Shown in pieces: positions 3,920 to 31,230 of a stretch of DNA of 64,000 nucleotides (within the stretch, counting starts at the first letter, position 1; the number at the start of each line of letters is the position of its first letter). Source of the stretch: Fragum whitleyi (taxonomy: Eukaryota > Mollusca > Bivalvia > Cardiida > Cardiidae). Made by a program: the position numbers and the translations under genes. Below the pieces are notes generated by a model that did not search any database, was not told the DNA's origin, and saw only the letters and a list, made by a program, of their open reading frames with translations. The stretch lies in the NCBI GenBank assembly GCA_948146395.1, contig OX411557.1, positions 30,916,077 to 30,980,076 on the forward strand. The letters are read 5' to 3'.

Positions 3920-3928
3920 ATGATATAA
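3920..3928 (+). promoter_or_regulatory. Two-codon upstream ORF overlapping the PKS start
   Basis: ATG-ATA-TAA at 3920-3928 precedes the PKS start, and the last base of its stop codon is the first base of the PKS ATG (TAATG). The sequence is seen directly. Any role in reinitiation or translational damping is inference. Confidence 0.5.
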
Positions 3929-6900
3929 TGGAAGACGACGAGATAGCGATCGTCGGCGCCGGCTGTCGGTTTCCTGGCGCGGATAATCTAGACGAGTTTT
4001 GGAAAGTTCTCGTAAATGGAGAAAATCATGTTCGGGATATTCCGGAAAGCCGATGGAACAATAGCGCTTTTTACGACGAGGACCCGAATGCACCCGGAAA
4101 ATCCTACGTGAAAAAGGCGGGACTCCTGAAAGAGTAAGTTCTGTTTCATGCATTTTACACCCCCCCCCCCTTTGTATTAGTAGCCTATTGGCGAACCCGA
4201 AATAAACTTTAAAGATAGGTAGGTACTCAGTCAATGCATATGTTCGTCAGTGCACTGGGATTTAAACTTTTGCAAAACTGTTTGCAAATTATGACCATTC
4301 GCGAGCATAGCGGGGGTTTATTTCTAAATGTTTACAATAACAATATGACATCCTGAACGCAGGATAGATTCCAAAAATCTTAATTATAAACACCCACAGA
4401 AATTGCGCGAGTTTTCGAAGTTTGTCGTGGTCTCCATGGAAGAGGCGATGTCATAAAAGCGCGCCAGAGCACATGTTGCTTTAATGTGACGTCACAATAT
4501 CACTGAAGATGACGTTGAGAAAAACAAATCAACAACAGATTTAAACTGGACATTTGAAAATTTGATAAGTTTTACTGTGTCTTTTCATCAAGTCATAAAT
4601 GCATAAAAGATCTACAAACATGATTGGTAAGCGTTATAGGAATTAGGATCTTTTTCTTCGGACGTATTGACCAAAGTACCAATTTGAAGCCGATCACCTA
4701 AAAATATTCAAAATTAATTCATTTGCTTCCAAGGTACTTTCCAGGTTAAGGAAAAAGTCGGAGCGATGTCCGTAATGAAAAAAGTTTGTGCCACTTTCGG
4801 GATTGTTAATTTTTGGATAAAATACATGTACTGAAGCTGAAAATTGACTTAAAATTTCGGAATATTTTTTTCTTCTAAATTCTAGCAGATATTGATCTAG
4901 CTTTGGTAAGTTACCTCGCAATGGTAATTTCCCGGTCAAGTTTGGTCCTTTGAATAATTTTTATTAATTCACTAGTCAAAGATTCACTTTAAATTGTGTT
5001 CCTCAGAGTACGTGCATTATAAATGGCTGAAAATTAGCTTTATTATTCAATGACAACAATTTTTAGTACCGGTAAACAGCCATTTTGTAAGATTACGCAC
5101 AAAGTAGTCCCAATATAAATCTGTTTAAGTTTTTAGAAATCTTTATATTTTGGACCCAGTATATCAAATTCTAAAATAATTCTAAATAAATCATGTGTTA
5201 TTAAAACTCAGCAGAATGAGACGATTCTATTGAGTGTAACAGCATAGGATTTACGATACATTCGCAATAAAGTAGATATTCGTTCAAAATAATATTTCGT
5301 ATTTTCTCACGAAAAGTGTATTAAGCGTCCATTCTCTTTAACGACCGCTTTTTTGTGGTTCCATAAGTGGTCACTAAATACAAATTTTACAATAAATAAA
5401 ATGCACGTTCAAGAAAATGAGTCCCGTCCATGACAAAGAAATTAATCTTCTGGGTTTAACTTTTATTTGTCATTTAAAGAAAATACACGATCAAAAAGAG
5501 GTCAGCTAGAGGTCGCAATTTAAAAACAATTATATAGTGAGGTGGAATATTCATTAAACATTAATTAACAAAAACCGACAAGGTGGAACATTTAGATTCA
5601 GGCCAGCCTTCGAATCCGCGTAGACTGACCAGGAACGTACTGCTCTCCCCCATTGTTTTACATGTATTCTGGACACAATAGGTTTTTAAGTACAGTCAGC
5701 TACATGTCAATAGTGAATTGATGTTCATCTCGATCAAAATCATACTATATGGCTCGCTCGGCGCTCAATGCAATACACTGTTAACACTTTTTTTTCTTTT
5801 TTACTCATAAGTAAAATATGTCCGCAATAATCAGGATTCGTTCAAATCACTTCATTATCTGATTCAAATCGGTCAAATCATTCCACAAGTTTATTGACTG
5901 GTTTTGTGTCTGATTAGTCCCTGACGACATGAAAACAGAGCAGGACGTAGATTTTATTATTTGAAGGGATGCAAAAATTCGAAATCTTCGTCTAATTTGA
6001 ACGAAATTTGCAATATGTTATAACGTCTCAGTAATTATATCCAACACTCGTTCACCCCATGCGTTCCTAAATTGTTTAACATGCAAATTCCACGGAGTTC
6101 TTCGTTTGGTTAAGAAAGCTTTACAAGCCATTCTCGTGGGTCTCTAAAAATAATGTAATAACGTGATCAAAAAAATACTTTTCAGTCATGACAAATTTGA
6201 CTACCGTTTGTTCGGCATCAGTGAAGTCGAGGCCACAAGAATGGATCCCCAACAACGTTATGTATTAGAATGTGTCCATATGGCGATGGAAGACGGGGGT
6301 TTTACGAGGAAACAACTCAATGGAACCAACACAGGCGTCATAATTGGTAGGTGTTTATGTGTGTATGCTTTTGTTTGTGTTTGTTTATATTAAAATGCGA
6401 TGGAACACGGATGTTATCAGGGAACGAATGAATGGGACCATAACTGGCGTCCTAATAGGGAAGCTTAAATTACTAAATGAATCATGAATACAAGAGGCAT
6501 CCTATACGTTTCCTTGCCGTAATAATTTTACATTTTGTCCTGCTATTCGCTTTTCTATTGAGATACTGGTATAACCACCACTGGTAATTGCGATCTTTTT
6601 CCATTTTCTTTCTCAAATCAGAAGTATATTGACTGTGTCACGAGTGAGGACAAGATTAACGAGAACGTGCTTAGTAGTCCGTTTGACTTCAATATGGACC
6701 AACATTTCGCCGAAAATCTCAGAAATTAATTAATGAAACGCATATTTTTCTTGTCATATCATTTTTTCCAGCTTATACCATGACGAATTTTGTTTTTCAG
6801 AATTTTTGAATGTAAAATAATGATTTTGTCCGTCCGTCTACATGTTAACTTTCAGCATTTCATACCTACTTGTTACTGTATTAAACGGAACAGCGAATTG

Positions 6901-9900: not shown

Positions 9901-12900
9901 TTGAACAAAAATATAATTGCATTAATTCGGATTCAGACCAATTTCAAATATTATCTTTTATTAATCTATTCTTAAGAAAAAAATGAAATAATACGATTTC
10001 GAGAGAAAAAAATATTAAAAAACGACGTTTCTTAGCAATCTGACGCTACTGCCATATTTCTTACGTGGTTGCCATCTTTCATTTAGACCATCCAACGGGC
10101 GTAAGACTCACATGGACGTTACGCAAGGTAATGGTGACACTTTACAAAAACGTCGACATTAGCTTATTTTTACGACAAAATTCTTATTTTTCGACGTAAA
10201 TTAATAAAACATACATCAAACTTTGCATAAAAAAACTATCTACATGGTTGTGGTGTTGTTTGTAACTATAAGACAAATTAAAAACAATAAACTATCGTAG
10301 ACCTTTTATTTGATGCCAAATTTATAACTGTAAATATGTGTCAGCAGCGAATACAATGATTTCATATGTAAACGCATCGTCTTTTTTGACGTAACCGGCA
10401 ACTTTTGCTGTTACGTCAAATCGTAATCAAAATTACGCATGGTAAAGAGTATAAAAACCAAATTCACTATCTCATTCAATCAAATGAATAATTAGTTTAT
10501 AAAGTCTCCGAAACGCTTCTCAGTAAAGTGTCTAACACTATTGATGAATCACAAGGGGCGTGCCTACGTAGAACGCACGTGCGTAAAATGGTTTTATCAA
10601 ACAAAATATATTTTGTATATTATCGAAAAATGCTCATTACATCGTTACTACAGCTCGACAACAATTACAGTTTGTCTAACCTGTAATAACGACCTTCAAG
10701 TCCCAAACGACAAAAATCGTTGAAACAAAATTTCAACAGTCGTTGTTTTATAAATCAGTGATTGGATAGGTCAATGATTCAATTCTTGTTGTGTTTGCCA
10801 AGATTCGTGCATTTTGATGGGCTGATAAATTGTTTCATTACACACTGAAAGCAGTTTTGATTACGCAGCTTTTTTGTAGGCTTCCGCGGAAAGAAGTCCC
10901 GTAAAATAATCCATGTATTTGAGGGTAAATCTTAACATTTTTTGCTTCCGGAATTTAAATTATAAGTTGTGAAAGGAGTATTTCTTGATATCATTGAGGT
11001 ATGCAACTAAATACCTTATCCCCCTCATGCACGAATTCGCTTCGCCTATTCATACAGCTTGATAAGTTTTCTAGTTTTTATACCTTCATGGAATCAACGT
11101 CATATTCACTTCATCTCTTAAAGTATTGTCTTTATGAGATGCAACCTAAGCGTCGAAGCTGCGGTTGCAGCGTTTATTTTTTCTCATCCACGAAATTGAC
11201 TGAAACAAAATAGTGGTAGATATTTGGGTTTAACAGACCTTTTTCGTTGGTTACAAGGTCAAAGTAATATGTTAAGGTCAAGGTCAAATATTTTAAAAAT
11301 GGCAGTGTGTGTCTTTTTTTGTCCGTGAAGGTACAAACCAGTTTTTTGTTCTTTATTTAAGATAGGTAAAACATATCGATGATTTCGTCCAATTTGGACG
11401 AAATTAGCGCTATTGTATTACCTCCCTTTAATTTAACATAAAATTCACTCATCGAACTCATTTATTTGCATTCAAAAATCAAAACCCAAAATTATACACC
11501 GCATATATTTCATGATGTTCTTAATTAACTGCATTACATGTATTAGGGGAGGAATGTATCCGCCCCCCCCCCCCCCCCCCCATTTAAGGCCTGTTTATGT
11601 CGTTTTTCATTTCTTCAAAATATAACTTCTGTTGTCCAAAGTATCAGCATAAGACTTCTTAATATTCAGGCTGCATGAATGACGACTATAAAGCCATTGT
11701 GAACGACGATCTAAAGGATATTGGAGGATACAACGCAACGGGAACGTCAGTGGCCGTCATATCGGCGAGGGTTTCTTACGTCTATAACTTACATGGAACG
11801 TGTTTGACGTTGGACACGGCGTGTTCGTCGGCTCTAGTAGCGATACATCTAGCTAGTCAGGCAATCAGAACAGGTACGTCATTTTCTTTTTTATATTTCT
11901 TTCTTTGAGCGACAAAAAACCCATACAGTTTATTACATCGTGAAATTGACACTAATTCTGATCAAAATCATTCTGTATTATTCACTCAACGCTCCATTCA
12001 TTCATTCCAAACATTCACTCAAAAACGCTCCGAAATCATTGGAAAACATTTAAAAATCGTTCAAGACTATCAACAATAAATTCAAATCAATCTATTTATT
12101 CTATGATTTTATTAGCTGCTGTGGACTTTAAAGTGTCTGATTGGCCCACGGAGGCAAACAAACAGAAAAGTACGCATATTTTATTAAAGGGAGATAATTA
12201 ATATCGCAAATTTTGTTCATCCTGAACAGAATTTGCGATATAGGATTACCTCTCATTAAATTAACTCAAACCTCGCTCCACACACTCATTCAATTTCATT
12301 CCGAAATCATTCCAAAATCATTCACTTTGTCAATTCCACGATGTTGCAAACTGTACAGCTTCAATCAAGCATTAGTTATAAAGGTTTGACCCCACCCCAC
12401 CCCCATTCCGCAATGTAATTGTCCTGTACCCTTCGGGTGCATTTTAAGTTGTACAGTTAAAATTTATCGTGAAAATGTCACGATGAATGCCCTTTGAATA
12501 GTTATCGAACGAATTGGAGTGAATTGGGGAACGAGTATCGAGCAAAATTAAAGGGAGGTAATCTAGCATCAATAATATCGCCCAATTGGACGAAATAAGA
12601 GATACTTTATTAACCCCCTCTCATTAAAATCCATGGAATTTTTTCATCAATTGGAGTGAAATGTGGCTCGGTTTGAACGATTTTGAAATGCTTTTGAACA
12701 TTTTAGAGTGTTTTTGAATTGTTTGAGTGTGTGTTCCGAATGAATGAATGGATCGCAAAGCGATCGATTTAGAAAACTTCTGATATAAGGTAATGTCAAT
12801 ATATGATATAAACAACTGTAAATGAAGGCGTGCACGCGTAAATATTTTGAATGCACGATTAGTTTTCATACAAGCGTATTCAAAGTTACAGCAAGCTATC

Positions 12901-15900
12901 GACACGTAAGTTACAATGTACGTTCGCAATTATAATATAAGGTATATGTCTGTGCGTGACATTTCCAACAATTTGAAACATGCGTGAGGTGCAAACATTG
13001 TGTAGCATAGACAGTTCCGCAGTGCTACAGGAATATTGGCTCCCTGTCTGAAGAGACACATCTAGACATGATCTATTTACAAAATGTAAATCAAAGACTC
13101 TGGTCAGACTGTGCAGTTGCACAGGCTGGCCAGAAACTTTGTATGGCACTCATTTCAAATTGTTTGATATGTCACGCACAGGCTCATTTATTTGTTTAAA
13201 CTTTGAGTAAACGTTTACGTCTTTTGTAACATTCTCGAAATCTCAGATTTTACCTTTACTCTTTTACTTTCATTGTAAACACAAACTTACAATTTGCGGA
13301 TGGGCCTTTTACTGTGAGAGTTTCACCCCTAACGAAAATTACACCCCTGCTTTCTGAAAATTTCATTCATAAATCTATAAAAAAGTGATTCTCGAACTGT
13401 GTTGCACAAGAATCTGTACAATATCACTAGTTGTTTAAATCTTTACTCATTTTCTATTTTCTTCGGGCGATGTATAAAACCTTTTAACCTTTTAGTATTT
13501 GAGCCTGTGCGTGAGATTTTCAACAATTTCATACATGTGCATAGCAATAACTCTTACCGGCCTGTGCATCTGCACAGTCTGACTAGAGTCTTCACCATTT
13601 GTTTAGAAGATAGATAAGGGCTAAAAGTACTTGTACACCATCAGGTAACATTACAGTTACAGTAGGTAGCTGTCTACGCTGCTCAGTGATTGCTTCCCAC
13701 GTACATTTCAAATTGTTGGAAATGTCACGCACACGCTCATTTCTAATGTTAGCGCAAAGCTATTATATGTGACTACAAATTCATACACACTTACAAAAGT
13801 TTTATAGTTACCACTCGAAATATGCTTTTGTAAGGATTTTAGTAATCAAACTCGTAAAGTTTTGAGTTTTATATCCCTACGAACATAATTATAATTGCTA
13901 ACTATTTTATTTTGTTTATCATCATTATTACTATTATTACGTGAATTGTTCTTTTAATCATAGTGATGTTTTTTAGCAACCTTAATTTTAGTTGTTTCAT
14001 TTTAAAGGCGACTGTGAAATGATGATTTGTGGAGGCGTCAGCAGTATTATGTCCCCTGATATTTACGTGGCGCTGTGTAAAGCCCGGATGATGTCAGCGA
14101 CGGGACAATGTCAGTCGTTCTGTGATACCGCAGATGGATACGCACGTGGAGAGGGGTGTGGCATTGTGATCCTTAAAAGTCTAAAAGCAGTAAGTCATCT
14201 TATTGCGTTGTTTGTTTAAAGAAATGACGACATATTCCATTTCATGGAAGAATAAAACGAAAAAAAAAAAAACCCTAATCGCGTTGTATGAAAATGAACT
14301 CATAGTACACAAAGATACATATTTCTGACTCTCTTTTCTTGAATTTATTGAAGTTTAGAATATTTGCATAATAAAAGTCTGTGTGCGAACGCATGTGTTC
14401 AACGTTTGAGAAATTTCAACTCGCTTTGAACGTGTTTAGCGTTTAAACACAAGCCGATGTAATTTATTAACGTCTGCACCGTTTTTCGTATCTGAACGCA
14501 GGACAGATTTTCAAAAAATAGAAATAAACTATTTTAAAACCAAACACACACAAAACTATGCTATAACTGCTCCTGTTAAAAGATCTGTTAATCAATGCTT
14601 GATCCACTCTTTCTTTTGTTTTGCTCTCAAGTCAGAAAAAAGTTGCGATATTTCGATAATACATTTTTGAAAGACAACTGAAAAAAAATGTCTTTTCAAA
14701 ATCAGGCCAAGAGAGACGGTAACAAGATCTGGGCAACCATCAAAACCGGAAGTAACCAGGACGGGTGTGTCGCAAAGCCAATCACGGCGCCATCTGGTGA
14801 ACAACAACTGAAACTCCTGAAACGAGTCTACGAGAAATACAAGTTTGACCCTTCAGAAATACAATACATAGAAGCACACGGTAAGACACTTTATCCTTTA
14901 ACTGTACAAATATTCGATTGATAACATCCCATATAATTTTTATTATGATATCACACTGATATTTCTAAAACACAATATGCGCTTATTTTTGGAAGCTTGC
15001 TTTTCTGTTAGAAACATTTACGAAAAAAGGCAAATAAAGGTTGTAAGATAGGTATAATACGTACTTGGTGTTTTGTATGAAAAAAAAAATCCAACTCGGT
15101 TGTGGGAATTAATAATTGTCTCGGTAGAGCCTCGACAATTATCAATTGCCCCAGCCTCGTTAGATATTTGTTTTCATACAAAACACCAAGTGCGTATTAT
15201 AAATATATATAAAGGACTCCCAACTACAGTTGTGAACATCATGAAATTGACCCCCCCACTCTGATCACAACCGTTTTATTACTCAGCGTTCTATTCATTA
15301 GTTCATTCCAAACACACACTCAAATCTTTCAAAGACGCTCCGAAATCGTTCAAAAACGTTCCAAAACTGTTTAAAACGACCAACCTTTCAATTAAATTGA
15401 TCCGCTCATTCCGCAATTTGACATGCTGGTGCGGATTTGAAACGTCTGATTGGTACGCGAAGACACAAAAACAATACGTAGTTTTTTTAAATGGAGGTAA
15501 TACAGTTAACTACATCGTGAAATTGACATTCGCCCCAATCAAAACCATTCTAAATCGCTCAAAATCGCTCCATTCATACATTCCAAACACTCAATCAAAC
15601 CATTTAAAAACCTTTTTACAGGTACCGGTACGCCAATTGGAGATCCAACGGAACTGAATGCGCTTGGAAAATTCTTTTCGTCATCAAGAAATGAACATTC
15701 TGATGCTTTACCAGTGGGATCGGTTAAATCCAATATTGGCCACACAGAATCTGCAGCAGGAATAGCTGGTCTTTTGAAAGTGCTATTAATGATGACAAAC
15801 GGTCAGTTTGTGCCGTCTCTACATATTAAACCAGATAAAAGTAACCTAAATAAGAAGATAAAGCTGACCGAATATGGCCTGGATATCCCTACTCACGTTT

Positions 15901-18900
15901 CGACGTGGCCATTAAATCGAGATTATGGTCGACATGCCTGTCTGAATTCGTTTGGATTTGGGGGATCAAACACCCATGCTATTATTTCACTGTATGATAA
16001 CCCTGTGGCAAGCACAACTTCTGAGGAAAACAAACCCTTACCGGTATGCATATCTGGTATAGATCAAGAGGCGTTGAAACAAAATTTACTTCAACTTCAA
16101 GATGACTTGGACGAGATAGATATCATTCACCCGAACCTAAGCGACACGTCATTTAGACAGCGCGATATTTTTCCATACAGAACATTTGTGTTTGGAAACA
16201 CCAAAGCTGATATTCAAAGAGAATGTAAAACAAAAGCTAACCAAGTAGACGACATATCACCAAAGAAGAAACACAATATAGTATTTGTATATTGTGGAGT
16301 CGGGACGACTTGGACGGGAATGTGTAAGGAACTTATGGAGCAGTCCAGAGTATTTAGAGATTCGGTGCAAGAAATTGACAAATATTTGAAACCATTAACA
16401 GGCTGGAGCATCGCTGACAAGTTCATATCAGATTCAAATTACGATGACCCATTCTTGAACCATATAGCCATATTTTCTGTACAGGTTGCTCTAACAGCTG
16501 TATGGAAATCTTTTGGAATCGTACCCAATAAGATCATTGGGCAATCGGTGGGCGAAGTAGCGGCTGCTTACACGTCTAAATGCTTATCCCTGGAGGCAGC
16601 TGTAAATGTTATCTACTACAGATCGTTAATCTTGGCAAAGCAATCACAAGGATCCATGACTGTTGTTGGAAATGTTGGCATAAATCGAGTGGAAGAAATG
16701 TGCAACAGGTTTGAAAACAAAGTATGTGTTGCTGTTTATAGTAGTCCAATTGCTTGTACGCTATCTGGTACTGCCGATGATCTGAAACTCTTCGCAGAAA
16801 ACTTGAAAAATGAAGAAACAAACACAGATATGTTTGTAAGAGAACTCAGAGTGAAATGCGCTTATCACTCACATTTCCTTGAAGGTTGCATGGATGAAAT
16901 AAGGACAAAAATTGACGAGTCTTTAAACAAGATAGAACCATTTAATGTCACTATGAATGAGAATGTCGAATTGATATCAACTGTCACTGGAGAGGTTGCT
17001 ATTTCCAAAGAACTAGGAACCGGCAATTACTGGGCAACGAATATCAGGCAACCGGTGAGGTTTATGCAAGGTATAAAGAAAGCATCTGAAGATGACATTA
17101 ACAACGTTTATCTTGAGATAGGGCCTAGACCTGTACTAAAAGCACACATTGGTAACATTTTTGAAAGTATGGACAGGGTAACAACAGTGCCATCTATTAC
17201 AGCAAAGAAAGAAATTCAAATTCTTTATGGATCCTTAGCTAAATTATTTGAGATGGGCATAGATATTAACCCATTAGGATTCGATAATGTTGTTTCTAAT
17301 CAAGTAAGTCGAATTCCTAGATACGCATTCAATAAAACTGGGGAGACCTACATACCAAACAAAGCAAAGGTATACCTGGCCGGTTCGACAACTTCTTCAG
17401 CCAGCCATATGTACGTTCAAACTTCACGAAGTGAGAATGACGCTACTTTCAAAATACTCCTGGATGAGGAATCAACACCTTTTGTATTCGAACATTTTCT
17501 GTCGGACAACATCATTGTACCAGGAGCAACGTATATTGAAGCCGGATTTCATATAGGTTCTGAACATTTGATGATACCAGTGAACCGACTTTCCGTAGGA
17601 TTTAGCTTCGTTAAGACTTTTTCACCACCTAAAGGTCGACAGACTGAGTTGCAGGTAAAGATAGATGCCCAGGATGATCGTGACTTTGTTAGATTTGATG
17701 TGCAGGATAGTGATGTTATTCTAGCTAGTGGTACTGTAACACTAAGAAATAACTCTGGGCATAGCGACCAAGATATTGACTATCTAAAAGCATTGTGCAC
17801 GACCCACAGAAGTAAAATTGAATGCTATGAAGCTCTTGAAGAATACAATTTCAAGTACGGTGAAAGACTTAGTCTCATCCAGGAAGCTTGGGTATCTGAA
17901 TCTGGAAAAGCGTGTTTAGCAGAAATCAAGATGCCTGACTTTTTCAATAAGGAACTATTAAAGACACATTTTCATCCATCTGTCATTGACTCGATGTTGC
18001 AAATGTTTGGAGTTATTGTTGGCGAAATGGATGCTAGTACAAGAAAAGATGTTTTTGCTGTACCGAAAGGGGTTGATTCTGTAGTTCTGAACAGAGCACT
18101 AGAACTACATATGTTTGGGTTCGCAGAAGAGGTGAAACGAACTGTGAACTCGATACACTACAATGCCATATTGATGGCATCAAATGGAACAGTCATTGCT
18201 GAACTTGAAAATTTTTATACTAGGGTTATTTCAAGAGAAAGCACAATGGAAGATAGACCATCTGAGTTTGAATTGAAATGGACCGAGCAAGAAATATCAC
18301 AGACAAACCAAGTATTGCTCAACCATATTATATTACTGTCCAATAACCCAGATAAGCAATGGATCTATAAGTTGAAAGGAGCTACGGATGTTATGCTATT
18401 CGAAATAAATGGCAAGTTACCACACACTACAGAACGAAATGGGCAACAATGTATCATTTACCACGTATCTGATAGACCTGGAAATAGTCCTGGGAAAAAC
18501 ATAATTGATGACACAGTGAGAAGATTTACACACGTTCAACAATTATTGATGTTTAATAAACAAATGGCTGATGATATTCCAATCACTATTATAACTGAAA
18601 ATACAAAAGCATGTCCAGGAAGAGAATTCATTAACTATGCTGGATCGGAGCTGTGGGGAATGGTACGATCTGCCTTACACGAAGGATTATATGGAAAAGT
18701 TAGATTGATTGATATCGACCCAAATAAAATCGATATCTCTGTTCTCTTATCGGTCATCTCATCTAATAATCAGGATGGATTTGAGTATGCCGTGTCGGGA
18801 TCTAGAGTATATCAGTCTACATTGAAATCTTGTAAGGATTCTAGACGATATAGTCGAGAAATTTCAGTGAAAGCAGGCGATCATCTCTCTGTTCACACTA

Positions 18901-21900
18901 GCTCATCAAATAATGTGTCGACCCCATACCTGATGGTCTCAAAAAAACCTCAACCAGAAAGCGGATTTATCGAAGTGGTAGTGGAATCATTTGCAATCCA
19001 TGATAAATTTCTTTACGTCCCAGTGGTTACAGGGTCATTGAGATGTGACAATATACTACAAAGTGATACAAATGCCCAAATCGTTCTTCTTGAAGGCAAC
19101 GGGATAGTAAAGGATACAGAAGATGAAGTCTTCTTTCTTTATCCAGTCAAAGCCAATACGTGTGTAAATATTCCGAAATCATGCTTGTTTAACAAAAAAG
19201 ACTGTCCATTCTATCAGAGCGGTGTTTTAATGTTGATAAACGCAATTGTGCAAATATCGTCTGTTGTTGAAAACAGAAAGAACATCATAGTTTTGAAACA
19301 ATCTGAAGACGAAGCCATCGGTGAAAGAATATTCAAAATTTTCATGCAAATGAAAAGATGTAACGCCCGGTTCGTAACAAGAAATGATATTCAGAGAGAT
19401 GGGGCAATATTCCAGGAAGATACTTTGGTGATAGCAACCACGGCTTCTGTGGATTACTGGAATAATATTATGAAATCCTTTCCTCATTTGAAAAAGATAA
19501 TAACCCTTAGTATTTTCGTACCCGAACAACTTTTATTGTGGATCACCCATAATTTTTCGGACATCAAGGTAGAAGTTATTTCAACCATGGACATTTTTAG
19601 CAGTACAAAAATTATGGAAGCAATGCCGATGATCCGAAATTGCATGCAAGACCATCGCGTGGGCTGTGATGTGAATGTAAGAAACAATTTTCTGATAAAA
19701 TTACCCATGCAAAAGTCGGAACTAAAAAGAGATATTGAAAATGGTGCATTAAAATGTATTGTAACTAACAAAAGCCTGTTCCGTTCAGATGCATCCTACA
19801 TAATTATAGGGGGATTATCGGGTCTCGGCTGGGAGCTCCTTCAATATATGGCATCAACTGGGGCGAAGGTTTTGATAACAATGTCAAGGAGGGGACCGAC
19901 AGATTTTATGAAAGAGAAGATAAAACATATTGAGAATAAGCATGAATGTCGAGTCATACCACTACCAGTGGACATTTGTAATCTTGAGTCAGTGCAGTCC
20001 GTATTCAGCAGAATAAGCCTTTGCATCCCAACCAAACCAATCAGAGGTATATTCCACGGTGCCGGTATAACTTCTGATTCAATTCTTCCAAATCTTGACG
20101 AAGAGAGGGTTACTAAAGTTATGAAACCTAAAGTACAAGGTGCGTGGAATTTACACATTGCATCTTTAAATCTCCCTTTGGATTACTTTGTCATTCATTC
20201 ATCGATTGCTTCAGTCCTTGGAAACCCTGGTCAGTGCAACTATGCAGCTGCGAACAGTTTTCTTGATTCATTTGCCCTTTACAGACGATCGTTAGGATTA
20301 CCGGGCCAAAGTATCAATTGGGGTGCACTTGAAGTAGGAATGGCGGCTGAAACAGATGACGTCAAGACAAAATTGAAAGAAAAGGGATTTAATCTGTTAG
20401 CAAAAGATAAATTGATAGAGTGTTTCACTATGGCTCTTATTAAAGACAGAACAAATGTGGTTTATGCAGACATGGAGTGGGAAAAGCTTCTATCCAACCC
20501 ATCATTTGCGATGCAATCCGTGAAATTTGACGAATTTCAAAAAGTCAAAGTAAATTCCAAAATGCTTAGTCGTCAGATACGCTTTGACTTTGACGAATTC
20601 AATGAATTGGACGATGAACAAAAGAAAGAAAAGGTCAAAAGCGTGCTGAAAGAAATAATACAATTAGTTTTAGTGACAGAAGAAGATTCACTATGCGATG
20701 AGACACGGTTAACAGATATTGGAATTGACTCGATGGCTGCTATGAGTCTTTCAAACGCGATGTTTGATACGTTTGGAGTTAGTGAACAAGTGGTTAATCT
20801 GCTCTCTGAAGAAGCGACTATTGCATCCATTGCAGAAAAAATACTACAGAACTTTGGAAACACTGGCATCGAAAATGGAACTGAGAACGGCGAGTCAGAT
20901 GATCTGTCGGAATTTAGAAGTATTTTCGAGTCACATGAAGTGACGTTTATGCAGAAAGACATTTTGGATAGGTGTAAAGTGCAAAAACATAACCCGTATT
21001 TTCTTTTTGTACTCGATATCGAGGTATCTGGTCTCAAACTACCGTTGCTAGTCTGGAGAAAGATTTTTATTCATGCCCTGAAATTGAACCCGGGCTTTCT
21101 TAGAAGATATTCATTTCTTTCGAATGGAGAAATTGTCGTCGAATCTACACCAGAAGATGACCCTCCAGTGCATGTTACGAGAATCTCCATGAAAGAGTTT
21201 GATAAAAGCCAGGAATTTGACGTCCGTGAAGACATTACATTCGACATTAACGGTTCTTTACCAATAGCATTGCACGTTGCAGACAGCATTAAGAAAGCAG
21301 GAATAAGATTGATTGTACATAAACTGGCAATTGATCTCAGGGGTCTGACAATATTCTGTAGAGATATAGGCAAGACACTGGAAGCTGTTATGACGAAGAA
21401 AGATCTCCCAGCAAAAGGTCCCGATGTAGATGTTCCCTCAGCTGTCAGAACCTCTATTTTACCAAGAATGCGTGAGCTCAAAAAGTACTGGGACAACTAC
21501 ATGAATTGTGATCTTCGCCCTGTCACCTTTGGACAATCTCTGCAAGCTATTGATTCTAGCTATTGTCGCAATGAAGATGTGATAGTTCCTACAGCCACGG
21601 TTTCAAAGATAAAAAAGTACATTGCCAAACAAAGCATTAGTTTGTACGAGTTCATGATGTCATTGTATCAGTTATATCTGTATATCGGATCAGGATCTAC
21701 CGTGGTGACCGTCGGAACAGCCGCGGACATGAGATATCACGTGCCCGAACTGAATAATGTTTTAACAAGATGTGTCAATTACATTCCAATTATTGCAAAA
21801 ATAAATGAAGGAAATACACTAGCAGAATTCATCAAACACAACAGTGCTGAGCTATCAACTACAACGAAAAATGGGGCTTATCCCAGCTCTCTGATTCTTC

Positions 21901-24900
21901 AGAATATAAAATCCACTGATATGCGGGAAAATGTTAATCGTCACGTACTTGCCATGAACGACATGACAGGGTTAGCTGGGGAATCAATGGGAAAGAAAGC
22001 CTTCAAATTTCGTCGGATATTACACGCAAGACCAAACCGCGAAACGTTTTTATACGTACAGTATAACTTAAAGCAGGACTGGATTAAGTTTCAACTTGGT
22101 TATAACTCGGAGATATGTGGTCGCTTTGGGCATTCGTTTGCAGAAATACTATTATCGTTAGCAGAAATGGCAATGGAGGAGTCCACACAGTCTATCAAGG
22201 ATGTCAAAGGCGTCGTTCAAAAAACAGAATATTATAAACCACCCAAGAAGGAAAAGAAAGTAAGGAAGGAGGAAAAGAAAGAAATAAAGAGAAAACTGAA
22301 ATTAGAGAAAGGGAAGAAAAGGGGAAAGAAAGCGGTCCCGAAGTACGTTATTGGGCCTGACGTGATAGGTTTGTATTTTTTTCTTCTCCTAAATTCGGAA
22401 ACCTAGTTGTATAAAAGATAGTTATCAAGTGATGTTTTAAACAAGTCTTTGTAAAGTTGAAAGAGAAAAAAATGCTGATTGGTTGAAAATTTAAGCAATA
22501 TTTGAATTCTATAAATTTCGATGCGAAATAAACTTTAAAAAAATCTATACTCTGAAAAACAACAAAAAAATAAGGCAAAACAATATCCATCCGCGCCTAA
22601 TGTTGTTAACCCTTTCCTGTTTTACAAAATTTTGGACCTGTCCAAATTCATAGGTTTTGCAGGCGAAAATTTAAAGTGGATTTGATTTGAAAAATAACCA
22701 TTCAGTAGGGTAGCAAATAATGTGGAAAAAGAAGAAATTGCTTGTCAGAAGCAATTTCATCTTTTTTCCCAATGTTTTCTCAATCAAAAAATCACAGGCA
22801 AGTAAAAAGCAGGGATTAGACAGCAAAGGGTTAAGGTAGTGGACCCGTGATCGTTCCGAAACGTTTCGGAAGAATGAACTTTAACATTGTTAGCCTAGGT
22901 TTCCCAATGATTTTTATTGTGAAACCTCGGTCAAAATTGTGAAAGACCATAGTTGCGAAATATTGCGGAACTATTATGGGCCCACTACCTTAGGTACATT
23001 TGTATTCAATTTGGCCAAATAATAACCTCAAACGTTCTCTTTCCGATAATGCCTTAGGTCGTTAGGATGAATTTCAATTTATAAATATAGTATTTGACAA
23101 TGTATTAATTGGCAATTTGTATTCACCAAACTCAATATTTTTTCTATTAAATTTTTGTTTTTTGTTATCAAAGCAATATAAAACTATATTATGTCTTTAT
23201 TCAGAGAAAAGCCCTGTTGTAAATAGACACGCTGGAAAATTGAATGTTAGTTTTGGGGACAAGGAAAGTTATAAAAGCAGCAAAGGACTCGTAGCAGAAA
23301 CAGGAGATGGCATGTTTGGAAAGATAAAAGATATTTTGTTATCAGGTACGTATATTCAAGTTATTTTAGACTATTGACGAAATGATAAATGTCGTTACTT
23401 AGCTTAACTTTAAATGCATTGATTTACAGTTAAGGTAGAGGAACCGTAATAGATCCGCAATGTTTCGGCACTTTTGAACTTTCACAATGTTGACCGAGGT
23501 TTCCTAATGATTTTCATTAGGAAACCTCGGTTAACACTGTTAAAGTTCGTTACTCCGGTAACATTGTGGAATTATTACGGGTCCACTACCTTAATCTGTC
23601 GTTACTTAGCTTAACTTTAAATGCATTGATTTACAGTTAAGGTAGTGGAACCGTTATAGATCCGCAATGTTTCGGCACTTTTGAACTCTCACAATGTTGA
23701 CCGAGGTGTCCTAATGATGTTCATTAGGAAACCTCCTCGGTTAACACTGTTAAAGTTCGTTACTCCGGTAACATTGTGGAATTATTACGGGTCCACTACC
23801 TATATCTGCATTTTTTTGTCTCGTAAATCTGTGGTTCACAAGAAGATTTTTGTGTGGGAAGACCCTACAAAAATTGTATGAAACAACTGTGTCTTCGTTT
23901 ACTTTAGCTTAACACCGTACTTATAATGACTTTACTTAATTTTGAACATCGTGGAATTTTTAAGGTGCTAATTTTTGGCATTATTTCAGAATTAAATTGA
24001 ATGAGTGCGATGCGTGAGTTTTGAGTGAAATTCAAAGGAAGGTCATGCAATACCGCTAAGTTTGTTCAAGATAAATAACTTTATTGATGTTCATTACCCC
24101 CACCCCCACTCCCTCTCTCCAAAAATATCATGAAAAGTTTAAATAACTTTGTATGTCTTCAGACACAAATTGCATCTTCGAAGCACTTCCGAATTTAAGA
24201 AAGTCGGTAAAATCGTGGATTTTTCATAGCAATTTGAATGTAATTGTTTCGTTTTAAGTGATTTTAGAGCGTTTTTCAATTGGTTGTGTTAGTGTTTAGA
24301 GTGAATGAATGAATACACGAATAAATTAATTAATTGATTAATAAATTAATCGCTGAGTGTGAGTGTCAATTTCACGGTGTTATCAACTGTACGCGATAGA
24401 GAAAAACATGTTAGTGTCTTAAAATATCAATATTATCTAATAATATTTTTTGCAGCCGAGTCTAGATAAAATTGATATTTTAAGACGCTTACATGTTATT
24501 CTATTTATCATACAATCATTTTTCAGCGCTTAATTATTAAATCAAAGTACTGAAAGTACTGATAAGTTGGAATGCGTTCAAGAGACGGTGACATCAATCC
24601 ACTAACGAAGCTGACGCCTCCCGCCCACCGCCGAGGTGATCACATAATACGTCTCGTCTTCTGACGGGCGTATATTAATCAATATATTTCAACAACGAGA
24701 GACGCTTAATTGCCTAAATCGCTATACAGGCCTGCATCTGAATAAAGAAAAATAATAAATTAGAAGAAATGAGAGAAAATAATTCTGTATTAGAAAAACC
24801 GTGAAAATATATTCGTGCTTACTTTAAATCAATGTACACGCAGATGATATGATTACCATGCGCGAATCGAGGAGATAGGAGCATAATTGTTCATGAGTAT

Positions 24901-27900
24901 TGTAGGTATTCCAGTGGGACCTGGGGTCTCTTTCAAGAAGAAAAGTCGTACGATAGCTATTATACTTTAGGAGATATGCTCCGGACAAGTTTAGTTACAG
25001 AACCTCGGAACGATGAAACGACGGAATGACGGACGGAGACCATTACTATATCCCCTCGCCGAATACGGCGGGAGATAAGAGAGCTGTTAACTTTCATCTT
25101 GTACAAATGTACAATTTGTGTTATAAGAAAATTAACAATACGGACATTTTTTCCATGAAGGAGGAGTTGTATTCAAAAGAATTTTGACATGAAGTCCCCT
25201 TTTTCCACGACGCGACTGAAATTCACTTACCTGCAACAACATGCAAAAATTCAGGAAGCAATGTACATTTCGTAAAAAATCTTTAAAATAAGTCCATAAA
25301 TAAAGGAGAAGTTGCGTTCACAAGTATTTTACAAGAAGGTCCCTTTTTCCATGACGTAATTGTAATTCACTAAACCGATACTATATAGGCAAGGTCAGGT
25401 GACTAGGAACATTTTGTGAAAGTTTCATCCGAATCATTCCATAAATGGAGGAGAAGTTGCGTTCACAATTTTTTTTTTTCAAAAAGGCCCCCTTTTTCCA
25501 TGGCACGGCTAAAATTCATCAAACTGCGTTAAAATATGCGCTAGGTCAGGTGACTAGGAATGTTTTGTGAATGTATCATCAAAATGGTCCATAAATGGAG
25601 GAGTAGTTGTGTTCACAAGATTTTTCAAATGGAGGCCCCTTTTCCATGACGCGGCTAATATTCACCAAACCGTGACAATATACACTAGGTCAGGTGACTA
25701 TGAACATTCTGTGAAACTTTCATCCAAATCTATTCATAAATGAGGAAGGAATTGCGTTCACAAGTTTTTTTTACATGAAGGCCCCTTTTTCCAAGACGCG
25801 GCTGAAATACACCAAACCGTGAGTTTATGCGCAATGTCAGGTGACTAAGAACATTCTGTTAAAGTTTCATCCAAATCTAACCAGAAACCTTGGCGGAGTT
25901 GTGCTTTACAAGAAAAGTGGGCGTACATGCGTACGTATGCTTGCACAGTCAAAATCGCAAAATCCACGACTAGCCTTTAGGTGTCGCAAATTTATGAGTA
26001 AAGAAAACAATACGACAAGTTTCTTGAAAGCCAATTTTAATCGTACGAGTACTGGTGATTTTTCCAGGAAGCAGAATCGAGAGGGATAAATCTAAGTTGT
26101 AAGAACTTGTTTCCCAATCGATGTAAAATAAATAGGTTTAAACCAATCGTACGATTGTGATACGATCAAATATCGGTCGTAGGACCTTTCTTGAAAGAGG
26201 CCCCTGAAGACAAAACACGTGAGGTTGGTAAACTCGTTCAGATATTTGATAACAAGCAAGGCTGTAGTAATCTTCAATGAAATTTGAGGGATTGCGAACA
26301 TGCGTATTTTTGCACAAGTGAATTTATGTCTAAGCAATTTTAAAGAAAATAGACAAAAGCAGAAAGAGAAGATAAATATTTGCCTAAAGACCCGCAATTT
26401 AGAGTGAGTGATCCAAGGTAAATTTTGTCTATACAGATGGAGACAAAATTGACCTTTGATCACTCACTTAAACTTGTGGATCTATACCTTCATCGATCCT
26501 TGCTGCGTCCACCATCAGAGAAATTTTCGCGCGATTTTGAAATTGGGTTCCGTTTTGGGGTTGTTTGCTTGTTTTTTGCTATTTTTGATTTGGAGAAGTA
26601 TTAGAAAGAGAATATTTGCTGGATCGGATTTTAATACAAATAAATAATCTGCAGATGTTGCGCGTTTCTAATGATGCTTTACGGAACAATTAGATACAAA
26701 AACATTTAAACTATTTTGTAGAAGTGTGTAAAAAGTTCGATCAGAAAGAGAAACTAGACCTCTAAAAGAAGCTGCAACATAATTCTACGAAAAACCGCTC
26801 GCGACATTACCATATAAGCAGATCACGTGATTGGCTTGTGCTATTTCCACAATTCTACGAAAAACAGGTCGCGACATTACTAAATAAGCAGATCACGTGA
26901 TTGGCGATTGCTATTGTCAATAGCTGACTTTAGTGGACTTGACTTATCACATGATTTCCAAGTATAGTAATGCAAATATGTGATACTAGTAAATTCGTAC
27001 GCAAGTTTCAATAAATATCATTTAAAACATAAATTAGCGTGTTAATAATTTACATGAAGTGATAGTTGGGTAATTGTTCAACATTATTATTTCTTGATGA
27101 AATAAACTGCATGTCTATGTCAAGTTGAGATATACAAAATAGGCCGAAGTGTATTAACATCCTGTTCACGTGATATGTGTTATTAGAAAACCCGAAATGG
27201 AATTATCTTGTGTTCATTTTGCGGTTTTGTTAAATCTAAGTTGGAATTGCTCCGCATTCCAACTTAATAAAACCTTAAACATAAAAAGGAACAGAAAGTG
27301 TATGAAAGTGTAAAAATAGACTGCCTGTTATCTGGTTATGTTATCTGCCACGTGTTATCAGGTCAATATCATTGCATGAAAAATTGTATTTACCGTCGGT
27401 TTCAGGTGAATTTAGCAAACAGACATCGTACGGTTGGGACCATAAGGTTGAAGCCCGGCTGATTCTAGATAGAGACAATCGACTACTATTGGAGTGGGGA
27501 AAAGAGAGGCGAAGCCGGGGAAGGATAAATAAAGTCTTCGATCTCAGCAAAATGAGGAAAATGGTCACAAGAAAAATAAATGGTAAAACTCGTTACTAAA
27601 AGTTTATTTGACATAGAAATTTACAATTTTCTTATAATTCCTTTTCCTTCTTATTTAATTGTTTCTGATACTCAAAATTATTACTTCGTTTTATCATATG
27701 ATGTTTGAATTACTAGTATAGGAATATATAAGAATGAGGCGTTTTGGATTTATTTATCTATCTATACTCCTTTAATCAATACTTATTTTTAAAAAAAATG
27801 GAGATGAAATAGTTGTTTTGGAATGACAAAACAAACAAAGAAACAAAGGAATAAATAATCAAACCAACCAACACACAAAAAAAACAATCTTAATCAGAAT

Positions 27901-30900: not shown

Positions 30901-31230
30901 AAGTTTCGATTTGTAAAAAGTCAGAATTCCTTCTGAATGCTTGTATCTTTCATTACATTCTATTTTCAATATCTCTCTTTCAAATCTTGAGATGTTAAAG
31001 TCAGTGGAGCGATAAAGGCCCTCTTGGGCCTCTTGTGTGTCAACAGCACAACGAAGGAGTCTGCATTATCAATTCTTGACATTTACCTTTTTATATCGCT
31101 AACAGATTTACAGTCGTTGATGATTGTATCCAATGGAGAGAAGCTGGTTTTCAAGACACCAGACCGCAGGCAGGTTGAGCAGTGGATGGACCAGATTCAG
31201 AGATTTGTGAGAAAAGATCCGTTACTGTAG
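3928..31230 (+). CDS. Iterative type I polyketide synthase, KS-AT-DH-(psiER)-KR-ACP-condensation-PH
   Basis: Nine exons: 3928-4133, 6186-6346, 11670-11873, 14008-14189, 14706-14880, 15622-22368, 23205-23345, 27406-27582, 31106-31230. All introns are GT-AG, junction phases are 2,1,1,0,1,1,1,1, and the total of 8118 nt gives 2705 residues plus TAG. The start is the ATG opening directly into the KS motif IAIVGAGCRFPGA. Likely catalytic residues: KS C174/H309/H350, AT S618/H725, DH H934/D1099, KR S1837/Y1850/N1854/K1813, ACP S2013. A condensation-like domain (about 2081-2505), a Lys-rich linker (2514-2550) and a PH-like fold (about 2595-2705) follow. No thioesterase or methyltransferase is seen. 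The N-terminal half resembles fungal, bacterial and animal FAS-like PKSs. It should load acyl-CoA extender units and build a polyketide iteratively in the cytosol; the product is unknown. The last two introns could hide extra small exons, but the phases fit without them. Confidence 0.9.
4134..6185. other. PKS intron 1
   Basis: Starts GTAAGT and ends TTTTCAG, phase 2. It contains a C10 run near 4160, a perfect TGACGTCA at 4487-4494 and a diverged family C fragment around 5690-5885. No coding exon was recognised. Confidence 0.75.
7626..7679. repeat. 54-bp near-perfect hairpin
   Basis: The left arm GACCAAAACATCGTATCTAC plus AGCTT pairs with a right arm that runs AAGCTGTAGATACG and ends GGTTTGGTC. 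About 24 bp are paired with one small bulge and a 5-nt loop. It lies in intron 2, so it is transcribed in the PKS pre-mRNA. Confidence 0.7.
8190..9395 (+). mobile_element. 5'-truncated, frameshifted LINE (non-LTR) remnant
   Basis: The frame encodes the region just after a reverse transcriptase: VKPIL, then (after a frameshift near 8280) LYGCEIWG, a segment with KFYKYILGTHKK and AVLGDLGR, a second frameshift near 8796, and a zinc-knuckle-like CSNC...HFMIKC near 8930-8990. The 3' end is a short TTCTA tandem tail at about 9375-9390, typical of several LINE clades. The palm domain and ORF1 are missing. The clade cannot be fixed from this piece. Confidence 0.8.
11562..11582. repeat. Poly-C tract
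   Basis: About 20 consecutive C residues 90 bp before PKS exon 3. Its length is likely variable or error-prone in assembly. Shorter runs occur near 4160 (C) and 28953 (G). Confidence 0.85.
11924..12357 (+). mobile_element. MITE family C, full-length copy in intron 3
   Basis: Left end ACAGTTTATTACATCGTG and right end CACGATGTTGCAAACTGT. The middle has two facing arms, AATATCGCAAATTTTGTTCA and GAACAGAATTTGCGATATAG, forming an internal hairpin. Length about 434 bp. Confidence 0.75.
12946..13186. mobile_element. MITE family D, copy 2
   Basis: Ends TGTGCGTGACATTTCCAAC and GATATGTCACGCACAGGCTC are inverted repeats. The internal pair is CAGACTGTGCAG with TGCACAGGCTGG. About 241 bp, no coding capacity. 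Confidence 0.75.
13501..13739. mobile_element. MITE family D, copy 3
   Basis: Ends GAGCCTGTGCGTGAGATTTT and GGAAATGTCACGCACACGCT are inverted repeats. The internal segment is in the opposite orientation to copies 1 and 2 (CCTGTGCATCTGCACAGTCT), showing the element is nearly symmetric. Confidence 0.75.
14190..14705. other. PKS intron 4
   Basis: The only phase-0 intron of the gene, starting GTAAGT after codon Ala (residue 251) and ending AAAATCAG. It carries an ACGCAGGACAGATTT motif near 14503 that recurs near 4359 and 35089. No gene seen. Confidence 0.75.
14985..15215 (-). mobile_element. Palindromic element family B, copy 2 (partial, inverted)
   Basis: TACTTGGTGTTTTGTATGAA and its partner TTTCATACAAAACACCAAG flank ATTGTCTCGGTAGAGCCTCG and related inverted sequence. 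Only the start of the side arm is present. Confidence 0.65.
15502..15612 (+). mobile_element. Family C terminus adjoining the exon 6 acceptor
   Basis: Starts ACAGTTAACTACATCGTG and proceeds through the family C left end (AAAACCATTCTAAATCGCTC) to AAACCATTTAAAAAC, followed directly by CTTTTTACAG and the exon. The branch point of this intron must lie within or beside element-derived DNA. Confidence 0.65.
16275..17273 (+). other. Acyltransferase domain (residues about 528-860)
   Basis: The nucleophile elbow reads GQSVGE (S618), with Gln where most ATs have His. The second catalytic site is CAYHSH (H725), equivalent to the HAFH region of malonyl-specific ATs, and YWATNIRQPVRF and LEIGPRPVL are standard AT landmarks. 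Malonyl-CoA is the likely extender by analogy; specificity cannot be proved from motifs. Confidence 0.85.
17409..18240 (+). other. Dehydratase domain (residues about 906-1182)
   Basis: The double-hotdog DH shows HFLSDNIIVPG, where catalytic H934 is kept but the usual Gly of HxxxGxxxxP is Asp. The second motif HPSVIDSMLQ keeps the Asp (D1099) and Gln (Q1103). The domain is plausibly active, with a mild departure from consensus. Confidence 0.75.
18276..19703 (+). other. Structural KR subdomain followed by degenerate enoylreductase (residues about 1195-1670)
   Basis: Residues about 1195-1390 carry the structural-KR landmark SELWGMVRSALHEG...VRLIDID. Residues about 1420-1670 then follow the layout of the medium-chain ER (FFLYPVKANTCVNIPKSC, then a central helix and strand). 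At the place where an ER has its glycine-rich NADPH loop the sequence is NIIVLKQSEDEAIGERIF, with no GxGxxG. I infer a non-functional ER remnant, placed as in animal fatty acid synthase. Confidence 0.6.
19740..20513 (+). other. Ketoreductase catalytic domain (residues about 1683-1940)
   Basis: A typical NADPH Rossmann loop GGLSGLG (1706-1712) is followed by K1813 in MKPKVQGAWN, S1837 in VIHSSIAS, and Y1850 and N1854 in GQCNYAAANSFLD. All short-chain-dehydrogenase-type catalytic residues are present, so reduction of the beta-keto group is expected. The loop that carries LDD in B-type KRs reads ITSD, keeping only one Asp, so stereochemistry is left open. Confidence 0.88.
20616..20858 (+). other. 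Acyl carrier protein domain (residues about 1975-2055)
   Basis: The phosphopantetheine attachment motif reads LTDIGIDSMAAMSLSNAM with the acceptor serine at residue 2013 (codon at 20730). One ACP only is present, which suits an iterative enzyme. A 25-residue Asn/Gly/Glu-rich linker leads to the next domain. Confidence 0.88.
20934..22208 (+). other. Condensation-like domain after the ACP (residues about 2081-2505)
   Basis: The length of about 425 residues and the motif order fit the NRPS condensation superfamily: an N-terminal helix with FMQKDILDRC, a degenerate HHxxxDG reading VHKLAIDLRG (H2209, K2210, D2214), a later VGTAADMRYH resembling the xGTPVxxR motif, and RCVNYIPI resembling G.FVNTLP. 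The catalytic second His is Lys, so classical amide-bond formation is doubtful. Fungal reducing PKSs such as LovB also end in a condensation domain after the ACP. Here it may gate or release product, or be structural. Confidence 0.7.
22233..22343 (+). other. Lys-rich linker between condensation-like and PH-like domains
   Basis: Residues about 2514-2550 consist mostly of Lys, Arg and Glu (for example KKEKKVRKEEKKEIKRK), then a basic patch before a conserved-looking VPKYVIGPDV. A charged helix, a nuclear-type signal or an acidic-membrane contact are all possible. Confidence 0.7.
22369..23204. other. PKS intron 6, with a TTAA-type MITE
   Basis: A phase-1 intron starting GTTTGT and ending TTATTCAG. 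If it is not spliced the frame closes at 22404-22406, 13 codons past the donor, which would give a protein lacking the PH-like domain. Family A MITE at 22831-22993. Confidence 0.75.
22831..22993. mobile_element. Family A MITE, copy 1
   Basis: Inverted ends TTAAGGTAGTGGACCCGTGA and ATTATGGGCCCACTACCTTA, with an inner pair AACATTGTTAGCCTAGGTTT / AAACCTCGGTC. About 163 bp and able to fold into one hairpin. TTAA at the end suggests piggyBac-type target use. Confidence 0.75.
23391..23803. repeat. Tandem duplication of a 207-bp unit carrying a family A MITE
   Basis: The unit starting GTCGTTACTTAGCTTAACTT at 23391 recurs at 23598. Each unit contains flanking DNA plus one TTAAGGTAG-type hairpin MITE (23430-23594 and 23637-23803). 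The few differences include a 3-bp insertion (CTCCTCGG) in the second unit, so the duplication is young and occurred after the MITE inserted. Confidence 0.85.
23940..24395 (-). mobile_element. MITE family C, reverse copy
   Basis: The 3' side ends GTCAATTTCACGGTGTTATC then AACTGTA, with GAATGAATGAATACACG and GAGTTTTGAGTGAAATTC as family landmarks in reverse orientation. The other end is degraded. Confidence 0.6.
24403..24500. mobile_element. 98-bp hairpin MITE
   Basis: ACATGTTAGTGTCTTAAAAT with ATCAAT on the left is mirrored by ATTGATATTTTAAGACGC then TTACATGTT on the right, about 26 bp of arm around a 45-bp centre. Confidence 0.65.
25145..25900. repeat. Degenerate tandem array, period about 145 bp
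   Basis: The phrase GGAGAAGTTGCGTTCACAAG or a close variant begins near 25159, 25305, 25449, 25599, 25744 and 25885 (steps 141-150 bp). Each unit continues with CCCTTTTTCCATGACG, CACCAAACCGTGA and AGGTCAGGTGACTA. The reading frame is broken in every unit. Confidence 0.8.
26045..26140 (+). mobile_element. SINE 3' fragment (family S1)
   Basis: ACTGGTGATTTTTCCAGGAA, AGCAGAATCGAGAGGGATAA, then GTTGTAAGAACTTGTTTCCC and AATCGATGTAAAATAAATAG match the 3' halves of the fuller copies at 34150-34355 and 49440-49680. Confidence 0.65.
26395..26495. repeat. Inverted-repeat element shared with the flank of the Gly/Met gene
   Basis: GATCCAAGGTAAATTTTGTC and GACAAAATTGACCTTTGATC form a hairpin, followed by CACTTAAACTTGTGGATCTA. 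The same sequence order, ending in CAAACTTAAACTTGTGGATC, lies at 56370-56460. Confidence 0.65.
26777..26916. repeat. 70-bp tandem duplication
   Basis: AATTCTACGAAAAACCGCTC at 26781 and AATTCTACGAAAAACAGGTC at 26851 start two 70-bp units that both run through AAGCAGATCACGTGATTGGC. Confidence 0.85.
28510..29600. repeat. Degenerate tandem array, period about 153 bp
   Basis: GGCCGATTTCAATGAAACTT-like phrases begin near 28549, 28702, 28855, 29014, 29141, 29294 and 29450. Each unit continues with GTTCCTTGGGTGACCC, AATTTTGATTGACCCC and ATAGGCGTGGCAGGG. Seven units, no frame maintained. Confidence 0.85.
29735..30250. repeat. About 0.5-kb foldback (long inverted repeat)
   Basis: Arms pair progressively: TGACCCCTGTAATAAAAATG with its diverged partner CATTTTTTCAACAGAGGTCA, CACGTGCAAA with TTTGCACGTG, and most tightly ATTCATCTAAATAGCAGGGG with CCCCTGCTATTTAGATGAAT. 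The spacer is about 110 bp. Arms are diverged, so it is old. Confidence 0.7.

Follow-up and report, generated by a model that had tools for sequence, protein, structure and literature searches.

A predicted polyketide synthase gene of the bivalve Fragum whitleyi ending in a condensation-fold domain with a degenerate motif and a PH-like tail

We have analyzed a stretch of 64,000 nucleotides from the cardiid bivalve Fragum whitleyi (hereafter the window; positions 30916077-30980076 of contig C15, in a genome whose 38 contigs total 1.22 Gb) and found on its plus strand a predicted polyketide synthase (PKS) gene whose product ends in a condensation-fold (C) domain with a degenerate HHxxxDG motif, followed by a conserved tail that likely has a PH fold. 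The gene (3928..31230) was rebuilt from splice motifs and phases as a single open frame of nine exons, with GT-AG borders at all eight introns, and the predicted product has 2705 residues followed by TAG. Five of the eight introns fall within the KS domain, which is spread over exon 1 (3928..4133, with the start codon and the KS beginning; PF00109 gave 1.5e-88 on the joined N-terminus), exon 2 (6186..6346), exon 3 (11670..11873, with the active-site Cys motif DTACSSA), exon 4 (14008..14189), exon 5 (14706..14880, reaching EAHGTG) and the start of exon 6, the limits of exons 2 to 5 coming from splice reconstruction, together with motif search in exons 3 and 5. Exon 6 (15622..22368) is an uninterrupted piece of 6747 nt that holds the end of KS, AT, DH, an undefined region, KR, ACP, the C domain and a Lys-rich linker. 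The three remaining introns are in the tail, which is made of exon 7 (23205..23345, 141 nt; linker, then the first part of the PH-like domain), exon 8 (27406..27582, 177 nt; PH-like core), both of phase 1-1, and exon 9 (31106..31230; last strand, a putative C-terminal Trp helix and the stop codon). Intron 2 contains on the plus strand an open reading frame (ORF) of 205 residues (8193-8810) without Pfam match, which by eye resembles the end of a retroelement polyprotein.

From KS to ACP, Pfam recognized KS (297 and 131 bits), AT (PF00698, 173 bits; 16281..17195), PS-DH (70 bits), KR (PF08659, 187 bits; 19791..20330) and ACP (PF00550, 25.1 bits; 20643..20837), all of which, like the Condensation match described below, exceed their cut-offs; the DH region (17433..18242) also includes a PKS_DH_N match of 21 bits, below the cut-off of 27. 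The motifs DTACSSA, EAHGTG and KSNIGH were found in KS, GQSVGE in AT, HFLSD in DH, the Tyr motif QCNYAAAN in KR and GIDSM in ACP. The usual motifs are GHS in AT, where GQS is read here, and HxxxG in DH; we take the motifs of these five domains to be retained catalytic residues. The interval between DH and KR (residues 1190-1700; 18261..19793) gave no Pfam match with an E of 10 or less, and neither a CMeT nor a pseudo-ER was detected there by profile search. The domain order of the preliminary description therefore stands for KS, AT, DH, KR, ACP, C and the PH-like tail, together with its 2705 residues and its splice phases, whereas the labels “KRs” and “psiER” that it placed between DH and the last KR are not borne out by profile search. 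In NCBIfam, all 25 families listed of 43 for the KR part were far below their cut-offs, and there were none for the C domain. The gene product has no detectable ER in cis and no thioesterase (TE), and this lack of a TE bears out the non-standard release that had been proposed for the enzyme. The AT motif carries Val where methylmalonyl-specific ATs carry Met, a residue given as a rule of specificity (PMC7280274), and because of this replacement the extender would perhaps be malonyl-CoA.

Judged by the bit scores of KS and KR, not by a tree, the gene is a PKS and not a fatty acid synthase (FAS)-like PKS (AFPK), as it had first been called. KS scored up to 353 bits against PKSs on one stretch, 303 against LovB and 264–273 against FAS, with EcPKS1 absent among the best 60 of 75 matches, and KR scored 119 against MAS, 92 against FAS and 69 against EcPKS1. 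Few introns clustered at the N-terminus are the pattern of mollusc PKSs and not of AFPKs (Lin et al., 2024, PMC10764717), and the introns of this gene are not dense along it; the AFPK candidate was rejected on both counts. The sacoglossan AFPKs EcPKS1/2 (PMC7280274) are likewise animal, iterative and without TE, but their KS is FAS-like, their genes are intron-dense, and no C domain is described for them. The vertebrate otolith PKS OlPKS (PMC4604110) has the same KS-AT-DH-KR-ACP body, and many fish PKSs were recovered when the AT-to-ACP part was searched in the protein database (8000 candidates scored), but OlPKS terminates at the ACP.

Behind the ACP, residues 2070-2504 (20901..22205) match Condensation (PF00668) with 49.9–53.9 bits (cut-off 30.6) and have a two-lobe C fold in the predicted structure model, as the preliminary description had anticipated. 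Its statement that animal PKSs, taken there as FAS-like, normally stop at the ACP or a TE is not supported, C domains behind the ACP being already known in animal PKSs. The order ACP-C-AMP has been given for both lancelet and acorn worm, and lancelet also has TE-C orders (ACP-TE-C) (Hojo et al., 2015, PMC4604110), while among mollusc PKSs some bear a C domain and others do not (Lin et al., 2024, PMC10764717). These last share with the window gene an animal type I PKS, an NRPS (non-ribosomal peptide synthetase)-type C domain and few N-terminal introns, to which the window gene adds the three introns in its tail; the main text of that paper names no PH-like tail (“pleckstrin” occurs 0 times), and its sections 7 and 8 mention neither a loss of C catalytic residues nor where in the protein the C domain is located. 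A CON domain is also found in the fungal highly reducing PKSs LovB and MokA, but the CMeT and structural pseudo-ER of LovB are undetected in the window gene. To our knowledge, neither LovB nor MokA has a PH tail.

The HHxxxDG motif of the window gene reads HKLAIDLRG (21318..21344) in the family profile aligned to HHILLDGLS of 6mfw, a degeneration that led us to reject a canonical C domain. Across 22 relatives the second His and the Gly are kept in none, the Asp in all and the first His in 17, the other five being P0007 and P0015-P0018. Since both second His and Gly are missing in 22/22, the usual chemistry is probably not the way in which this domain would release the chain. A family-wide loss of this motif was described in no paper searched, though no search aimed at motif loss was made. 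Foldseek with the C model gave 743 matches, 276 of them at E up to 0.001, and among the best 50 was the X-domain structure 4tx2 (E 1.9e-19). In the X-domain of glycopeptide NRPSs, which recruits P450s, HHxxxDG has become HRxxxDE, a change that abolishes activity (PMC6565677). The likeness consists in the C fold and in the replacement of second His and Gly (PMC6565677, PMC1894796); the X-domain differs in its NRPS setting and its P450 partners, and its Arg at the second-His position is found in only 6/22 of the relatives here.

The domain might nevertheless be catalytic and release the chain as an amide or ester, using residues other than the second His. The predicted model retains the full C fold, the Asp is invariant and the first His frequent, and there is no TE in cis to do the work. 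Several published points also weigh against a domain without catalysis: the streptothricin ORF18 C domain with HQxxxDM is reported to be active, C domains in some cases stay active when their second His is mutated, and the Cy subtype functions with DxxxxD (PMC11546977). The activity of ORF18 and the tolerated mutations mean that motif loss is no proof of inactivity, and the structure models themselves vary (mean pLDDT 82.5, 79.9, 79.1, 65.3 and 53.0 for the five C-domain models). On the other side, the second-His position is occupied by A, K, R or S, unlike a catalytic site, and the five relatives named above have lost the first His too. We consider a catalytic C domain unlikely and prefer one that has lost this function.

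The C domain is followed by a Lys/Arg-rich linker of 43 residues with a net charge of +14 (22227..22355) and then by the exon 6 donor, and an unspliced exon 6 would read through to an in-frame stop at 22406, 11 codons beyond that donor. Given this stop and the prediction of exons 7-9 from the DNA, the protein might be thought to end at 22406, with exons 7-9 belonging to another gene or to a rare isoform. The paralogs in the same genome make this very improbable. A Condensation profile search of the genome gave seven matches, all in open frames of 2269–2310 codons and including the window gene, a number that is a lower bound (9 candidates scored). Downstream of 6/6 other paralogs and on the same strand, tblastn found exon 8 (49.3–84.0 bits; 39–63% identical) and exon 9 (27.7–53.9 bits), above the maxima of 25.4 and 23.9 bits obtained in 200 shuffles per exon on the same DNA. 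In 7/7 the C exon has a phase-1 G|GT donor close to its end, and exon 8 measures 174–180 nt and is bordered by phase-1 AG and GT sites, after which exon 9 follows in phase 1. Moreover, three proteins (P0016, P0017 and the NCBI-named P0018, see below) carry everything from KS to a tail in one chain. Synonymous divergence of the tail is near saturation (pS 0.70–0.88) and non-synonymous divergence low (pN 0.19–0.44) in 21/21 pairs, so that the tail is, by this comparison, coding and constrained. A chance ORF or a separate gene was rejected on the exon matches, the pS and pN values and the phase-1 donors, and the inclusion of exons 7-9 in the preliminary gene model is thus upheld. As joints 6-7, 7-8 and 8-9 are all of phase 1, we infer that the tail was acquired by exon shuffling.

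Exon 7 is less uniform. Its counterpart is clear in paralog gE (141 nt, as in the window gene), whereas gA has a weak 90-nt candidate (score 28, not above that of chance segments in the same DNA), the last seven residues of which were included in tail alignments A3 and A7; the last base of exon 7 was set to G wherever the exon was not located. In gE (contig C1) two extra exon-9-like copies, one 58% identical and the other 41% identical and interrupted by a stop, lie just 3' of exon 9 (L018 3792-3958, minus strand), a tandem duplication of the last exon. Two pairs of these PKS genes are arranged tail to tail on contig C15: the window gene (plus, ending at ~30947306) and gA (minus, ~30997345), with ~50 kb between their ends, and gD (plus, ~28241164) and gC (minus, ~28244254), whose exon 9 matches are ~3 kb apart. 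The C domains of gD and gC are sisters (100/100).

PF00169 is the top-scoring Pfam family for the window tail (21.5–22.8 bits, E 1.3e-4 to 3.4e-4), aligned over model positions 4-104 of 105. The match to the PH domain claimed by the preliminary description thus extends over nearly the whole model in the window tail and does not reach the Pfam cut-off of 25.1. The paralog gE gives an alignment of the same extent, and of the other five own-genome tails two align in part. A cluster of basic residues is kept in the seven copies, whose isoelectric points (pI) are 9.7–10.6 in 7/7, and the last strand and the Trp helix would be placed as in PH domains. With a 10-sequence tail profile, the PDB search gave seven sequences up to E 10, four of them the PH proteins FARP1, ARAP3, GRK2 and SBF1; 1bak and 1v5u, two of these four PH labels, are presumably PH domains. 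On this basis the tail likely has a PH fold.

Some results weigh against this assignment, and some searches add nothing to it. The best window score, 22.8 bits, is below the cut-off, which is reached by 0/7 own-genome tails; 3/7 have no PH match at all, and exon 7 was not convincingly found by similarity search in 4/6 paralogs (gB, gC, gD and gF). All PDB matches of the 10-sequence profile had E above 0.03 and were not significant; the window tail alone gave as best match a thymidylate kinase (E 0.027), which we read as chance, and the seven-member profile gave 2gmq (E 0.087) and nothing else. Of the 43 candidates in a profile search of the protein database with exon 8, not one had an E of 10 or less. 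The tail might be a divergent module of beta-sheet and helix through which the protein contacts a second subunit, as a dimer, or a partner, and not a lipid-binding PH domain, a view with which its charge, not conserved in the more distant relatives described next, also agrees. We regard this as possible but doubtful, in view of the alignment of the window and gE tails over almost the complete PF00169 model, the presumed PH-like order of strand and helix and the conserved basic cluster, and we keep the PH-like fold as the preferred reading.

In the protein database, eight relatives were found for the C-terminal part and 79 for the AT-to-ACP part (E up to 1e-60), 83 of them distinct. The precomputed domain lists of these 83 proteins do not include PF00169, and the existing annotation misses the tail. 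Three of them, P0016, P0017 and P0018, are single proteins of 2560–2586 residues with a complete KS to ACP by Pfam, a C domain and a further tail, and P0018 is LOC133192336 of the oyster Saccostrea echinata, also a bivalve. Their C domains were located with a custom 14-sequence profile (E 1e-31 to 4e-18), which the fish PKSs of the body search match in its ACP part only; the alignments of distant relatives were built on HMMER and MAFFT. Compared by hhalign, their tails match the own-genome tails with a probability of 84% (E 7e-6, score 36.1), the highest control scores being 19.1 for 100 column shuffles and 19.2 for 24 windows taken elsewhere in these proteins. At the level of sequence, the C-plus-tail ending is therefore common to the family of the window gene and an oyster protein, where it is divergent. 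The divergence is also where the distant proteins speak against the reading preferred here: PF00668 gave 18.0 bits on P0017, below its cut-off, and no match on P0016 and P0018; Pfam found no PH match in any of the three tails; and their pI values are 9.0, 6.2 and 5.0. The acidic tails of P0017 and P0018 count against a conserved lipid-binding role. The basic own-genome tails would suit an acidic membrane, and given this difference in charge, lipid binding may be a feature of the lineage and partner binding the general one.

Taken as a whole, the explanation that we favor, and to which we give an even chance, is a partly reducing iterative PKS with a non-catalytic C platform, a PH-like tether and release in trans or spontaneously. 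As a type I PKS, the enzyme would most resemble the C-domain-bearing PKSs of molluscs, and its KS, AT, DH, KR and ACP would build a hydroxylated or polyene chain. By analogy with the glycopeptide X-domain, the C domain would no longer condense; placed next to the ACP, it would serve as a platform for docking or gating and hold the carrier or a partner. Through its PH-like tail, gained on phase-1 exons, the megasynthase would be tethered either to a lipid of a membrane or to a partner protein, and the chain would be released by an enzyme in trans or by spontaneous ring closure. Release by cyclisation has been thought possible for EcPKS1, and chain release in most mollusc AFPKs without TE is stated to be unknown (PMC10764717). 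The same question arises for the window PKS, and a C domain that retains its fold without its motif in 22 relatives, together with a conserved PH-like tail, makes it testable with defined constructs.

A wider proposal, which we advance tentatively and hold to be less probable than the mechanism itself, is that of a class of animal megasynthases, that of the oyster included, in which the C domain has turned into a docking hub and has been fused to a PH domain, with synthesis targeted to a phosphoinositide membrane or a signalling protein and release carried out by the docked partner. If true, this would be a PKS under PH-type spatial control, and spatial targeting would be added to the known abilities of PKSs. 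We know of no earlier PKS under such control. In the literature searched, with most subscription papers and supplementary files outside it, no PKS with a PH domain was found, one paper showing two separate genes.

Elsewhere in the window, on the minus strand, an ORF of 676 residues (46737-48764) combines a Mutator-like transposase (PF20700), an RNase T exonuclease and a PML C-terminal domain, and is possibly a transposon-derived fusion gene. A Gly-rich ORF of 294 residues without Pfam match (56481-57365, minus strand) falls within the most GC-rich 2-kb block (45%), and a tRNA was detected at 50479-50551, also on the minus strand (Rfam, 34.4 bits).

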